From Geobacteraceae bacterium (lineage in GTDB: Bacteria; Desulfobacterota; Desulfuromonadia; Desulfuromonadales; BM103), in the NCBI GenBank assembly GCA_024641085.1, contig JAHEDT010000005.1:1-64000 (forward strand): DNA of 64,000 nt. Reading direction: 5' to 3'. Positions 313 through 49,530 of the stretch are shown in pieces. The position numbers and the translations under genes were made by a program. Numbering within the stretch: the stretch's first letter is position 1; each line of letters starts with the position of its first letter. The notes under the pieces are model-generated. The model did no database searches. It saw only the letters and a program-made list of their open reading frames with translations, and had not been told where the DNA came from.

Positions 313-2226
313 TTATTTAAACAGCCTGTCGATCAGCTCACGGTATTTTTTCTCGATCACATGGCGACGTTTCTTGAACGTGTTGGTCAACTCCTCGCCC
401 ACGGTGAATTCATGCTTGAGGAAATGAATCTTCTGCAGCTTTTCGTACGGTTTGAAGCCCGCCTTGGCGTGTAGCAGACGGTTGATTTCATTTTTGATCC
501 GGTCTCGCAGGGCGTGATCTTCGTGCATGTCGTTGCCGTGCTCGTCTGAATGGCCGAAGCGTTCCGTGACAAAATCCTTCAACTTGTCCCAGTCCGGAAC
601 GATCAGTGCCGCCAGACCCTTGCGGTCCTGGCCGACCAGGACCGCATCGGTGACGAAAGGCAGCTGACCGATGGCGCCCTCGATACGTGACGGGTCGATA
701 TTTTCACCGCTGGCCAGGACGATGATCTCCTTGGAGCGTCCGGTCAGCACCAGCTCACCGCTGAGCGTCAGCTTGCCGAGGTCGCCGGTGTGGAAAAAAC
801 CGTCGGCGGTGAAGGCCTTGCGGTTTTCCTCGTCGTTATCGTAGTAGCCATCGAAGACTTGCGGTCCCCGAACCTCCACATCCCCCTCGCTTCCAGGGGC
901 AACGACGTTGCCGTCGTTGTCGACGACACGGACTTCCGTCATGACAATCGGTGGCCCCAGGGTGCCGAACATTTCACTGTTGAAGCCACGCCCGGCGATC
1001 GCCGGAGCGCATTCAGTCATCCCGTAGGCATTGGCGATCCGGATGCCGATGGCGTCGAGCCAGCTTTCCAGGTAGGCCGGGAGGGTTCCTCCGCCGCTGA
1101 CGGCGATGCGCAGCCGGCCGCCGAATTTTTGCTGCAGCGGGGCCAGCTTTTTTTTCGCCAGCAGATAGGGGAGCGCCAGGATTGCAACTTGGCTCAGCGC
1201 GCACAGTGTCTGGCCTAAACGGGATAGCAGGGTCGTCCGGGAGAACTGGGGCAGGTGCCCCCGCAGCTGTCGTCTCGCCCGCCGGAAACGAATCGAGATC
1301 TTGACCAGCAGGTTGAATATCCCGAACGCGCGGCCGCCGCGCTCCATGATCGCTGCCACCACCTTGCTGTAGAGTGATTCCCAGAGTCGCGGCACTGTTG
1401 CCACCAGGGTCGGGCGATACGTCTCCAGATCTCCGGCAAAGGTCTTCAGCGAGGAGTAGACGATGCAGCTGCCGCAGGTCAGGGCGAGAAGCTCCAGGGT
1501 GCGTTCGTAGATATGCCAGCTGGGCAGGATCGACAACCACAGGTCCTGCTCGGTGATGGAGATGATCGGCGGCAGCATCTCGGTATTGTAGAGAATGTTG
1601 CGGTGGTTGAGCATCACCCCCTTGGGGGTGCCTGTGGTTCCTGAAGTGTAGATGATGGTGACGAGATCTCTTTGGCTGATTGCCGCAACCATGTGATCGA
1701 AGCGCTCGAAATCATGGTCGCTGAGCGTTCGGTCGTCGAGGATATCGTTGTAGGCGTAGATCCGGCTGAACAGGGTATGCTTGTCGGTGCCCTCGATGAT
1801 GAAAATCGATTTGAGTTCCTTGTGGGTGCTGATCATCTCCTGGTGACGAACCAGCAGGGCATCGGTCTCGACCACCAGGAAAGTGCAATTGGCATGGTTG
1901 AGGATGTACTCGAGTTCCAGGGTCGGTGTTTCGCTGCCGCGCGGGACGCTGACGGCGCCGAGGGCCATGAGGGCCAGGTCGGTGACGATCCAGGCGTAGC
2001 GGTTGTCGGAGAGCAGCAGAACCTTGCTGCCCCGCCTGACCTTGCGCTCTTCGAACGCTCTGGCCAGAAGGATCACGTCTTCGCGCAGCTTGTGGTAATC
2101 AACGGTCAGTTCCTGTTTGCCGACCCGGTAGACAAAGGCCGGCCGGTCGGAAAACTTACTGCAGATCGCCATGATGGCGGCGATTACCGATGTGGAATGC
2201 GGCTGCCAGTTGGAAGGATCTGCCAT
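313..2226 (-). CDS. long-chain fatty acid--CoA ligase (AMP-forming)
   Basis: Activates a carboxylic acid, probably long-chain fatty acid, to its acyl-CoA via an acyl-adenylate. The 637 residues hold the adenylate-forming P-loop IIYTSGTTGTPKG (191-203), the NAYGMTE adenine-site motif, and TGDLG and TGRSKE of the hinge and C-terminal domain. A C-terminal TNTFKKRR stands where the catalytic lysine motif lies in the family. The length matches the FadD15/LACS-like subgroup with an inserted helical segment. The start has AAAGGAG 7 nt upstream. It is the last gene of the operon that begins with the DUF1302 barrel, 36 nt after the RND gene, which suggests it activates the acyl compound that system moves. 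Substrate chain length cannot be told from sequence. Confidence 0.9.
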   Translation of the reverse strand: MADPSNWQPHSTSVIAAIMAICSKFSDRPAFVYRVGKQELTVDYHKLREDVILLARAFEERKVRRGSKVLLLSDNRYAWIVTDLALMALGAVSVPRGSETPTLELEYILNHANCTFLVVETDALLVRHQEMISTHKELKSIFIIEGTDKHTLFSRIYAYNDILDDRTLSDHDFERFDHMVAAISQRDLVTIIYTSGTTGTPKGVMLNHRNILYNTEMLPPIISITEQDLWLSILPSWHIYERTLELLALTCGSCIVYSSLKTFAGDLETYRPTLVATVPRLWESLYSKVVAAIMERGGRAFGIFNLLVKISIRFRRARRQLRGHLPQFSRTTLLSRLGQTLCALSQVAILALPYLLAKKKLAPLQQKFGGRLRIAVSGGGTLPAYLESWLDAIGIRIANAYGMTECAPAIAGRGFNSEMFGTLGPPIVMTEVRVVDNDGNVVAPGSEGDVEVRGPQVFDGYYDNDEENRKAFTADGFFHTGDLGKLTLSGELVLTGRSKEIIVLASGENIDPSRIEGAIGQLPFVTDAVLVGQDRKGLAALIVPDWDKLKDFVTERFGHSDEHGNDMHEDHALRDRIKNEINRLLHAKAGFKPYEKLQKIHFLKHEFTVGEELTNTFKKRRHVIEKKYRELIDRLFK

Positions 2227-46455: not shown

Positions 46456-47055
46456 TCAGATATCTCGCCGTCCCTCGACGGCCCGGTTCACAGTCGCTTC
46501 GTCAACGTACTCGAGTTCACTACCCATCGGAATCCCGTAAGCCAGGCGCGTCACCCTGATCCCGAGGGGCTGAATCAGCTTGGCCAGGTACAGGGCCGTG
46601 GCGTCGCCCTCGACAGTAAAATTGGTTGCTATGAGAATCTCCTGAAAGCCGCCTTGCTCGAGGCGCGAGATCAGGGGGGCAATCTTGAGGTCTTCTGGAC
46701 CGATACCGTCCAGGGGCGACAATGCTCCGTGCAGCACGTGGTAGAGCCCCTTGAACGAACGGCTGCGCTCAATGGCCAGGAGCGCCTGGGGCTCTTCAAC
46801 GACACAGAGCAGGGTTGCGTCTCTTCCTGGATCACAGCAGAGGGCGCAAGGATCCTGTTCCGTGATATGGAAACAAACGGAGCAGAACCTGGTATTGCGT
46901 TGCAAGTCGAGAATAGCCCCCGCCAAGGCTTCGGCCTGGCCCTTGGGCTGACGAAGCAAGAAAAAGGCCAGTCGGGTTGCCGTCTTATTGCCGACACCGG
47001 GGAACTTGGCCAATTCCGCGACCAGGCGTGCGAAAGACGGAATGGAGTCTAGCAT
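46456..47055 (-). CDS. recR: recombination mediator RecR
   Basis: 199-residue RecR, which with RecO/RecF helps load RecA at gaps. Helix-hairpin-helix FPGVGNKTATRLAFFLL (18-34), a zinc finger CSVC...CALC (about 58-74) and a Toprim domain (LLCVVEEPQALLAIERS) with LIATNFTVEGDATALYL. It ends the conserved dnaX-ybaB-recR order, but here a 247-nt AT-rich gap with its own likely promoter separates it from ybaB. No Shine-Dalgarno sequence is visible before ATG 47055. Confidence 0.95.
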   Translation of the reverse strand: MLDSIPSFARLVAELAKFPGVGNKTATRLAFFLLRQPKGQAEALAGAILDLQRNTRFCSVCFHITEQDPCALCCDPGRDATLLCVVEEPQALLAIERSRSFKGLYHVLHGALSPLDGIGPEDLKIAPLISRLEQGGFQEILIATNFTVEGDATALYLAKLIQPLGIRVTRLAYGIPMGSELEYVDEATVNRAVEGRRDI

Positions 47056-47301: not shown

Positions 47302-47619
47302 TTAACAAAGGCCGGGAATGCTCATACCGCCGGTGAGCTTGCTCATCTCTTCACTGGCCATCTGCTGGCTCTGCTTGAGCGCCTCGTTGACGGCCGCGGT
47401 CACCAGGTCCTGGAGCATTTCCACATCGTCCGGATCAACGGCCGCGGGATCTATTTTCAGACCAAGCAGCTGCTGTTTGCCGCTGACCGTAGCAGTCACC
47501 ATGCCACCACCGGCAGAGGCCTCGACCTGCTTGTTGGCAAGCTCTTCCTGTAGTTGGGCCATGCGGCGCTGCATCTGCTGCGCCTGCTTCATGATATTGC
47601 CAATTCCACCTCGTGTCAT
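47302..47619 (-). CDS. ybaB: YbaB/EbfC nucleoid-associated protein
   Basis: 105-residue YbaB/EbfC family DNA-binding protein. GIGNIMKQAQQMQRRMAQLQEEL is the helix that dimerises, and VSGKQQLLGLKIDP with DVEMLQDLVTAAVNEALKQSQ completes the fold. It is encoded between dnaX and recR as in most bacteria. The start at ATG 47619 has GGAGG 6 nt upstream, better than the ATG at 47631. The 90-nt gap to dnaX shows nothing. Confidence 0.95.
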   Translation of the reverse strand: MTRGGIGNIMKQAQQMQRRMAQLQEELANKQVEASAGGGMVTATVSGKQQLLGLKIDPAAVDPDDVEMLQDLVTAAVNEALKQSQQMASEEMSKLTGGMSIPGLC

Positions 47620-47709
47620 GTATTCCTCCATACTTTTTGACGATAAGTCGTTGTTTGTTGTCGGTGCTGAAATCAGATTTTCGTACCTCGCATCTCGTGC
47701 AAGGGACTT

Positions 47710-49368
47710 TCAGACAAAGCCTTTATCGATTGGGATCACTTTTTTGATTGTGCCATTAAAGATTTCCTGGACCGACTTCAGGGCCGGATGGCCGACAGCG
47801 TCTTCACGAAGGCGCCGCATGCGGTCAGTCTCCTTGGCCTGCCTGGTTTCCACCAGTGACGGAGGAGCGCTTTGCTGACTGGAGTCGATCCCGGAAACCA
47901 GTAGCTTGACCGGTTGGCCGAAGTAGGCTGTCGCCAGTGCCTCAAGATCCTGGGTGATTTGCTGCTCCTGAAGCTGGCTGATCATGAACGACCCGTTCGG
48001 GTAGCCAATTTCCAGGGTCGGCAGTTCCAGTTTGAGTGGACGCCCGTGCTCGAGGACCGATCCGAGCATTGGCCGGCTCTGCCTGACCTGTTCAACCAGC
48101 CCCTGCCATCCTTTGTTTGCGGTCTTTACGGCGACGGGGGCTTCAGGCTTTTTTGGTGGAGGGGTCTCCTGAGCTGGTCGCGGCTGAGCGCTCGGCATTT
48201 TCCGCGGTGGCGGCGCTGTTTCTCCCAGGCGTTTTTCCAGGCTTTCGATGTGACTGATGAGTCTGGCGAGATTCTGAGAGGGAGACAGGTTGGCCAGGCG
48301 TACCAGGCTCATTTCCAAGGTCAGCAGCGGGTAGTTGCTGTTAACCAGTTCGCTCTGAGTTTTCAGGAGCAGGGTGACAACCCGCTGCAGGTCCTCCAGG
48401 GAAGCTTCCTCCGCCAGAGTCTTCAGCCCCTTTAATTCATCACCGACTAAATCGAGCATCTCAGCTGGGTCTTCGACCACTTTGCAGATCACCATGCCGC
48501 GGAACATTTCCAGCAGGTCCTGGGTGAACTGCTTGAGGGCCAGGCCCAGTTGATCGATCCGGCGGACAGCGTCCAACGCCCGGCGGCTGTCGCGCTGCAG
48601 AACGGCCTCAACGGTATCCAGCAGCAAGCGCCGGTCGACCATGCCGAGCAGGGTCTGGACGGCATCGTCCTCCACCTCGTCCCCGGAGAACGCAATCACC
48701 TGGTCAAGGGTGGAGAGCGCGTCGCGCATGCTCCCTTCGCCCTGGCGGGCGATCAAGCTAAGGCTGCGGTCGGAGATCGTCAGTTTTTCCGCGTCAGCGA
48801 TCTCGCGCAGGCGCCCGGCGACCCGCGAGGTGGGTATTTTGCGGAAGTCGAAACGCTGGCAGCGCGAAAGGATGGTGATTGGAATCTTGTGCGGCTCTGT
48901 CGTGGCAAAAATGAACTTGGCGTGCTCGGGCGGCTCTTCAAGAGTTTTCAGCAACGCGTTGAAGGCGTTGGTCGAGAGCATGTGGACTTCATCGATGATG
49001 AAGATCTTGAAGCGCGAGCGATTGGGTAGATAGCGGATGTTTTCGCGCAGTTCGCGGACATCATCGACACCGGTATTGGAGGCCCCGTCGATTTCTATGA
49101 CATCAAGGCCATGACTGGCGGTGATTTCCATGCACGAAGCACAGGTGCCGCAAGGCTGGTCGGAGAGACCTGCTTCGCAGTTCAAGGCCTTGGCCAGTAT
49201 GCGCGCCGCTGAGGTTTTGCCGACACCACGTGCGCCGGTAAAAAGAAAGGCATGGTGAACCCGGCCGGAACGGATTGCATTCGCCAGGGTCTGGCTGACA
49301 TGCTCCTGGCCGATCAGGTCGGTGAAGTTTTGCGGGCGCCACTTACGGGCTAGTACCAGGTAGGCCAT
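47710..49368 (-). CDS. dnaX: DNA polymerase III tau/gamma subunit
   Basis: 552-residue clamp-loader subunit (tau). AAA+ core: Walker A GARGVGKTSAA, the zinc motif CGTCASC with an upstream Cys, DEVHMLS and SRCQRFDFRK. Domain III is about 220-360, then a Pro-rich linker (about 385-410) and the C-terminal tau domain. The start is ATG 49368, where the conserved MAYLVLARKWRP begins; the upstream frame belongs to the SRP RNA gene. The linker carries an E. coli-like slippery heptamer (48148-48154). A -1 shift there would end the chain after 408 residues as a gamma-like form. Confidence 0.96.
   Translation of the reverse strand: MAYLVLARKWRPQNFTDLIGQEHVSQTLANAIRSGRVHHAFLFTGARGVGKTSAARILAKALNCEAGLSDQPCGTCASCMEITASHGLDVIEIDGASNTGVDDVRELRENIRYLPNRSRFKIFIIDEVHMLSTNAFNALLKTLEEPPEHAKFIFATTEPHKIPITILSRCQRFDFRKIPTSRVAGRLREIADAEKLTISDRSLSLIARQGEGSMRDALSTLDQVIAFSGDEVEDDAVQTLLGMVDRRLLLDTVEAVLQRDSRRALDAVRRIDQLGLALKQFTQDLLEMFRGMVICKVVEDPAEMLDLVGDELKGLKTLAEEASLEDLQRVVTLLLKTQSELVNSNYPLLTLEMSLVRLANLSPSQNLARLISHIESLEKRLGETAPPPRKMPSAQPRPAQETPPPKKPEAPVAVKTANKGWQGLVEQVRQSRPMLGSVLEHGRPLKLELPTLEIGYPNGSFMISQLQEQQITQDLEALATAYFGQPVKLLVSGIDSSQQSAPPSLVETRQAKETDRMRRLREDAVGHPALKSVQEIFNGTIKKVIPIDKGFV
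48098..48170 (-). promoter_or_regulatory. putative programmed -1 frameshift signal in dnaX
   Basis: On the minus strand, in dnaX frame: codons CCA AAA AAG at 48156-48148 give the heptamer A AAA AAG (48154-48148). AGGAGA (48170-48165) lies exactly 10 nt before it. A stem AGCCCC (48142-48137) with GGGGCT (48103-48098) starts 5 nt after it, with an inner GCC/GGC. After a -1 slip the next codons are GCC TGA, so the chain ends with one extra Ala after Lys407. All three parts match the E. coli dnaX signal. Whether it works is untested. Confidence 0.72.
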
Positions 49369-49420: not shown

Positions 49421-49530
49421 AAGTGACAGCCAGGCGCCCCCGCGGCACACGGCTGAGGCCGCTGCCGCTGCTCCCTTCCGGGTCTGACGGAGTTCACGGC
49501 CGTCCATTGCGCGGGACCCGGCTGTCACTT
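49421..49530 (-). ncRNA. ffs: signal recognition particle 4.5S RNA
   Basis: About 110 nt. The terminal stem pairs AAGTGACAGCC (49421-49431) with GGCTGTCACTT (49520-49530). The minus strand carries the SRP domain IV core CCGTCAGACCCGGAAGGG and AGCAGCGG, the universal tetraloop and asymmetric bulge that binds Ffh. It lies 52 nt upstream of dnaX, as in Bacillus (scr-dnaX). The exact 5' and 3' ends are approximate. Confidence 0.93.

Follow-up and report, generated by a model that had tools for sequence, protein, structure and literature searches.

In a 64,000-nucleotide stretch of a Geobacteraceae bacterium contig (JAHEDT010000005.1, positions 1 to 64,000; hereafter the window), the dnaX gene very probably carries a programmed -1 ribosomal frameshift signal, from which both the full-length tau subunit and a gamma-like subunit of 408 aa would be made. 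The signal appears to be a real, new and well conserved occurrence of a known mechanism, located in Desulfuromonadales. The architecture of the signal, its conservation, selection at synonymous sites, covariation in the stem and a single lysine anticodon are the observations from which we infer that frameshifting takes place, with what efficiency, and what the short product does.

The importance of gamma was long disputed. That synonymous selection maintains the same four parts in a further lineage, from a different phylum, argues that a shortened clamp-loader subunit has a use of its own.

The dnaX gene and the layout of the signal

The open reading frame matches the NCBIfam profile NF011526 (DNA polymerase III subunits gamma and tau) with an E value of 8e-237. 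Its start was placed at ATG 49368, MAYLVLARKWRP, which is kept in relatives; the ORF listing opens the frame earlier, at GTG 49497. The gene stands in the order 4.5S RNA, dnaX, ybaB-like ORF, recR, of which the dnaX-ybaB-recR part is typical. The ORF at 47302..47631 is one that we take to be ybaB/ebfC-like.

The first A of the slippery heptamer is the third base of CCA, and CCA AAA AAG encodes P K K at codons 405-407, numbering from the ATG. The run at this site is six A long. Between the heptamer and the stem lies CCTGA, placing the first stem pair 6 nt downstream (+6), and the -1 frame reads GCC TGA, which gives the short product its length of 407+1 = 408 aa.

An earlier note, made from the sequence alone, had proposed an in-frame A AAA AAG, an AGGAGA exactly 10 nt upstream, a stem beginning 5 nt downstream and a stop after a single -1 codon; direct reading of the minus strand finds all four where it had placed them (Table 1). 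The 408-residue DnaX that it had predicted comes out at the same length, and the site lies, as it had said, after domain III, where the E. coli gamma product ends.

Table 1. Features of the dnaX region in the window, with two A tracts from the Geobacterales side
Feature	Position	Strand	Extent or basis
dnaX, full-length (tau) frame	47710..49368	-	552 aa, ATG at 49368
Small SRP RNA (4.5S RNA) gene, directly 5' of dnaX	49425..49523	-	Rfam RF00169, 70 bits
ybaB/ebfC-like ORF (presumed), 3' of dnaX	47302..47631	-	ORF translation
recR	46456..47055	-	TIGR00615, E 2e-72
SD-like AGGAGA, 10 nt 5' of the heptamer	48165..48170	-	Direct reading; anti-SD enrichment in 51 genomes
Slippery heptamer A_AAA_AAG	48148..48154	-	Direct reading; conservation in family and order
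TGA in the -1 frame, after one -1 codon (GCC)	48143..48145	-	Direct reading
Downstream stem, 5' arm AGCCCCCGTCG	48132..48142	-	Pairing and covariation tests
Downstream stem, 3' arm TGGCAGGGGCT, starting at a conserved Trp codon	48098..48108	-	Pairing and covariation tests
Predicted gamma product, 408 aa: zero frame to AAG (48148), then -1 GCC TGA	48143..49368	-	Direct reading; layout as in the E. coli gamma annotation in NC_000913
A-tract examples, Geobacterales side	L256 codon 542; L234 codon 528		

In the proposed mechanism, the stem from +6 would slow the ribosome at CCA AAA AAG, and AGGAGA would pair with the 3' end of the ribosome's own 16S rRNA, pulling the ribosome backward. Two tRNA-Lys (the UUU isoacceptor) would re-pair one base upstream on AAA AAA, either simultaneously or sequentially, after which one codon, GCC (Ala), would be decoded and TGA would terminate translation. 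Two clamp-loader subunits would in this way come from a single mRNA, tau of 552 aa and a gamma-like form of 408 aa. The shorter product would keep the ATPase/oligomerisation domains I-III and lose the regions equivalent to the DnaB- and Pol III alpha-binding parts of the E. coli protein; in E. coli tau, the DnaB contact lies in residues 430-498 and the alpha contact in the C-terminal part from residue 611 on (PMC11470591).

Chance expectation and conservation

Sampling of dnaX began with 30 related genomes and was widened to the whole order, to other orders within the class and finally to the remainder of the phylum. The window belongs to Desulfuromonadales, the order of which L002, L004 and L008 are named members; the other large order is Geobacterales (L009 is a Geomesophilobacter). 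Codon usage was taken from the window's ORFs and from each dnaX itself.

Given the peptide P-K-K-P and the codon frequencies of long ORFs in the window, CCA AAA AAG CCT has a probability of about 0.003, and the heptamer together with an immediate -1 stop arises in 1.25% of synonymous-codon shuffles of the window's linker. Across the order this combination is present in 51 of 103 complete Desulfuromonadales dnaX genes, against 0.60 expected from synonymous shuffling, and the earlier opinion that chance agreement is unlikely is well borne out by these figures. Elsewhere in the window's ORFs, which amount to 18,569 codons, A_AAA_AAG stands in frame once, at codon 358 of the ORF at 313-2226 (-); its -1 extension runs for 44 codons and it shows no further evidence of recoding.

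Within the window's family, all 16 members with a complete linker keep the heptamer, each with TGA exactly one -1 codon on; loss of the heptamer in close relatives, a check that the earlier note had put forward, was looked for in these genes and none had occurred. The TGA columns are invariant in 42 distinct aligned rows, which were chosen for having TGA. In the incomplete assembly of the nearest congener sampled (G001), dnaX was not found.

The linker heptamer is in frame in 54 genes of the order, three of which, beyond the 51, have a longer -1 extension. In L120 (f17, heptamer at codon 409) the -1 stop comes 11 codons on and in L145 (f8, codon 413) nine codons on, and the tail of a short product would be longer in both.

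Outside the order, the heptamer with an immediate -1 stop was found in none of the 37 sister-order and none of the 63 other-phylum dnaX genes scored; the signal is therefore not simply forced by the protein family. Within the order it is patchy, being missing from five families and from about half of a sixth. A DnaX tree of residues 1-368, a part without the signal, requires at least 14 changes of the trait under parsimony; taken alone, this tree does not separate gains from losses. Because the heptamer is missing both from the sister order and from f7, a family that branches early, the distribution suggests that it was gained early in Desulfuromonadales and then repeatedly lost.

Since many Desulfuromonadales do without the heptamer, gamma is not indispensable throughout the order. 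One might therefore ask whether the main effect of frameshifting is to adjust how much tau is made, or whether the short chain is an unstable by-product and not a working gamma, because the product must be dispensable in the several families from which the signal is missing. Against this, the truncation point lies after domain III as it does in E. coli, where gamma is a component of the holoenzyme (PMC5009743), and the signal has long been conserved in most families; we regard this alternative as unlikely. A frameshift that yields a gamma-like subunit remains our preferred reading.

The downstream stem and the SD-like element

The stem in the window forms 10 of 11 pairs, with one C.A mismatch and an apical loop of 23 nt, and folds at -17.0 kcal/mol, compared with -18.7 for the E. 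coli hairpin. Taken alone it is no stronger than synonymous shuffles of itself (z +0.6). Folding of a single genome is uninformative here, and the stem was therefore assessed by comparative tests, so that the support for the window's stem is comparative.

The register of the helix is identical in all genes with the signal, starting at +6 past the heptamer and reaching as far as the conserved Trp codon. Pairing averages 9.47 of 11 positions, against 7.93 (sd 0.14, maximum 8.43) in 300 synonymous-shuffle sets, and shifted registers in the 51 genes pair at 33-52%. In the alignment of 42 distinct rows, 84.8% of the cells are paired, falling to 32-53% when the arms are slid by one to three columns. 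Two-sided changes, GC/CG and CG/UA among them, occupy 23 cells as against 10.7 in the shuffled rows, and the covariation score is 0.267 as against 0.194, a value reached by none of 500 shuffles; these rows had been picked for carrying the heptamer and TGA, their alignment was anchored on codons, and kinship inflates shuffle tests of this type. The number of pairs with a two-sided change, three, is not above that of the shuffles. The heptamer, the stop and the stem are conserved beyond the needs of the protein sequence, and the stem covaries.

The best pairing with the anti-SD sequence at 6-14 nt upstream has a mean of -6.71 kcal/mol in 51 genomes, compared with -5.02 for the synonymous null, and none of 60 null sets was as low as observed. 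The window's own value, -7.4, is good; pairing is nearly absent in the sister species L083 and L085 and weak in L087. Across the order the SD-like stimulator about 10 nt upstream is thus enriched, but several genes of the window's family have a weak one or none.

The earlier reading of the site as an E. coli-like frameshift signal stands on its conservation and covariation. It should be qualified on three counts: several family members pair weakly with the anti-SD sequence or lack the SD-like element, the window's stem contains a mismatch, and the signal is patchy.

A short DnaX could also arise if RNA polymerase slipped on the A run, as it does in Thermus, where dnaX slips at A9 (PMC1088944, PMC5009743); runs of this kind occur at the same linker position in related genomes (A10 in L132, A9 in L165, A8 in L146). 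Such slippage has been linked to runs of 8-9 A or more (PMC3711429, PMC1088944), but the run in the window is merely A6, that in each of the 51 genes is six or seven A, and the heptamer-bearing relatives retain a short run ending in G. The stem and the SD-like element are moreover constrained at synonymous sites, and slippage by the polymerase would need neither. Thermus-type slippage was rejected for the window's site on the length of the homopolymer, and we hold it to be highly improbable there. That the sequence does nothing except encode a conserved PKKPEAP linker motif, without recoding, is hardly credible either: P-K-K-x-E-A-P is indeed conserved in the family and the stem arms fall in codons of conserved residues, but the 51 signals far exceed what protein-preserving shuffles produce, the stem pairs better than in every synonymous set, and no shuffle equals its covariation.

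The lysine tRNA repertoire

Ribosomal frameshifting of the E. coli type at A_AAA_AAG goes with a single lysine tRNA that reads both AAA and AAG. The genome, from an assembly that is 99.5% complete, gave 43 tRNA matches, of which one is a lysine tRNA, with the anticodon UUU. No CUU lysine tRNA was found among thirty loci analysed with ARAGORN and two more read in the assembly. All matches that could possibly be lysine tRNAs were typed; the class II-sized ones, not all of which were typed, are too long for a lysine tRNA. A single UUU lysine tRNA would therefore serve AAA and AAG, as the frameshift mechanism expects. A sole tRNA-Lys is the stated condition for the slipperiness of AAG in E. coli, and the presence of two lysine tRNAs has been proposed as the reason for transcriptional slippage in Thermus (PMC5009743).

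A CUU tRNA-Lys is present in at least 25 of 71 genomes on the Geobacterales side (G125, G126, G131, G142, G145, G146 and 19 others). Among the sampled Desulfuromonadales it was seen in only two genomes, G095 and G097, both of family f7, and it was seen in no heptamer-bearing genome, in a search that misses some tRNAs (8 of 146 genomes gave no UUU match). Matches to a CUU tRNA-Lys in G028, G108 and G178 were discounted, as they do not look like tRNA. Families f2, f4, f14 and f15 have neither the heptamer nor a detected CUU tRNA.

This distribution agrees with the idea that the tRNA repertoire matters, but the pattern is phylogenetically clustered. The class offers a natural test of the published proposal that the choice between ribosomal frameshifting and polymerase slippage depends on which lysine tRNAs a genome has (PMC5009743).

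A tracts in Geobacterales and other lineages

A run of eight or more A close to the end of dnaX occurs in 34 of 37 complete genes from Geobacterales and relatives. Runs of at least nine A occur in 40 of 47 genes when the Geobacterales side is taken together with Desulfuromonas proper (f14), compared with 4.16 expected. These A9-A11 tracts lie about 40-48 codons before the end of the gene (L230-L269; in f14, L171, L174-L177 and L160). In nearly all Geobacterales genes, the frame reached with one extra A would close at TGA about one codon on (EKKK, then P/A/E/S, then the stop).

The tract is probably a site of Thermus-like transcriptional slippage, with a predicted product that is DnaX without its last ~40 residues. 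The cut would fall at a place comparable to the tail with which E. coli tau binds alpha; that protein shows negligible alpha binding once its last 25 residues are removed (PMC11470591).

An independent gain in Desulfuromonadales, set beside the A9-A11 tract of the other order and of Desulfuromonas proper, leads to the idea of a switch. We would give roughly even chances to a history in which the E. coli-like gamma frameshift arose independently in Desulfuromonadales and the recoding of dnaX changed both mechanism and position within the class, a change that the lack of a CUU tRNA-Lys may have allowed.

The three heptamer-less Desulfuromonadales genes with an A run at the frameshift position (L132 at codon 417, L165 at codon 409, L146 at codon 418) suggest a local swap of ribosomal for transcriptional slippage. 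Farther afield, A9-A10 runs stand just after domain III of dnaX in Fibrobacter (L029, L033, L044, L050 and L052, codon 385), Acidobacteriota (L032, L036, L047 and L051, codon ~407-411) and Neomarinimicrobiota (L023 and L025, codon 378). With -1 stops close by, it is possible that gamma is made by slippage in these lineages too.

The dnaX of L245 (genome G190) is unusual in that its A9 at codon 530 is followed directly by a zero-frame stop, for a total of 534 aa. Either tau would need slippage there, as in Chlorobium, or the assembly miscounts the tract.

Comparison with known dnaX recoding systems

Frameshifting in dnaX has been listed for relatives of E. coli, Vibrio and Neisseria (PMC3711429), and no relevant paper pairing it with Geobacter or Desulfuromonas was found in the literature searched.

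Thermus thermophilus likewise obtains a shortened DnaX from one reading frame; its system needs A9 and acts on RNA polymerase, whereas the window has A6 and translational stimulators. The two-ORF dnaX genes of Chlorobium and others (GeneTack, PMC3711429) are also recoded at A-rich sites, but tau requires recoding in those genes and is the zero-frame product here. Caulobacter crescentus has two forms of DnaX as well, although its gamma is produced by proteolysis, without recoding (PMC5009743).

The closest parallel is dnaX of E. coli (RF00382), which has the A_AAA_AAG heptamer, an SD-like element 10 nt upstream, an NNTGA spacer, a -1 stop after one codon, an 11-bp stem from +6 with A-U as its first pair, a site after domain III and a sole tRNA-Lys(UUU). 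The K-12 gene (L229) has AGGGAG ten bases upstream, AGTGA as spacer and A-U at the base of the stem. Signals of the E. coli type yield gamma with an efficiency of about 50%. The two differ in the apical loop, which is 5 nt in E. coli and mostly 20-26 nt in Desulfuromonadales, and in that E. coli belongs to another phylum while the remainder of the phylum sampled here is without the signal.

The enterobacterial Rfam model RF00382 (DnaX element), which scores 96.8 bits on E. coli dnaX, has no match in the window at E values up to 10 and none in the related loci L102, L130 and L143 at E values up to 5. Because the model fails on the window and the other sampled lineages of the phylum are without the signal, the Desulfuromonadales signal is probably of independent origin. 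It is the same kind of signal as that of E. coli and lies outside the RF00382 family as its model now stands.
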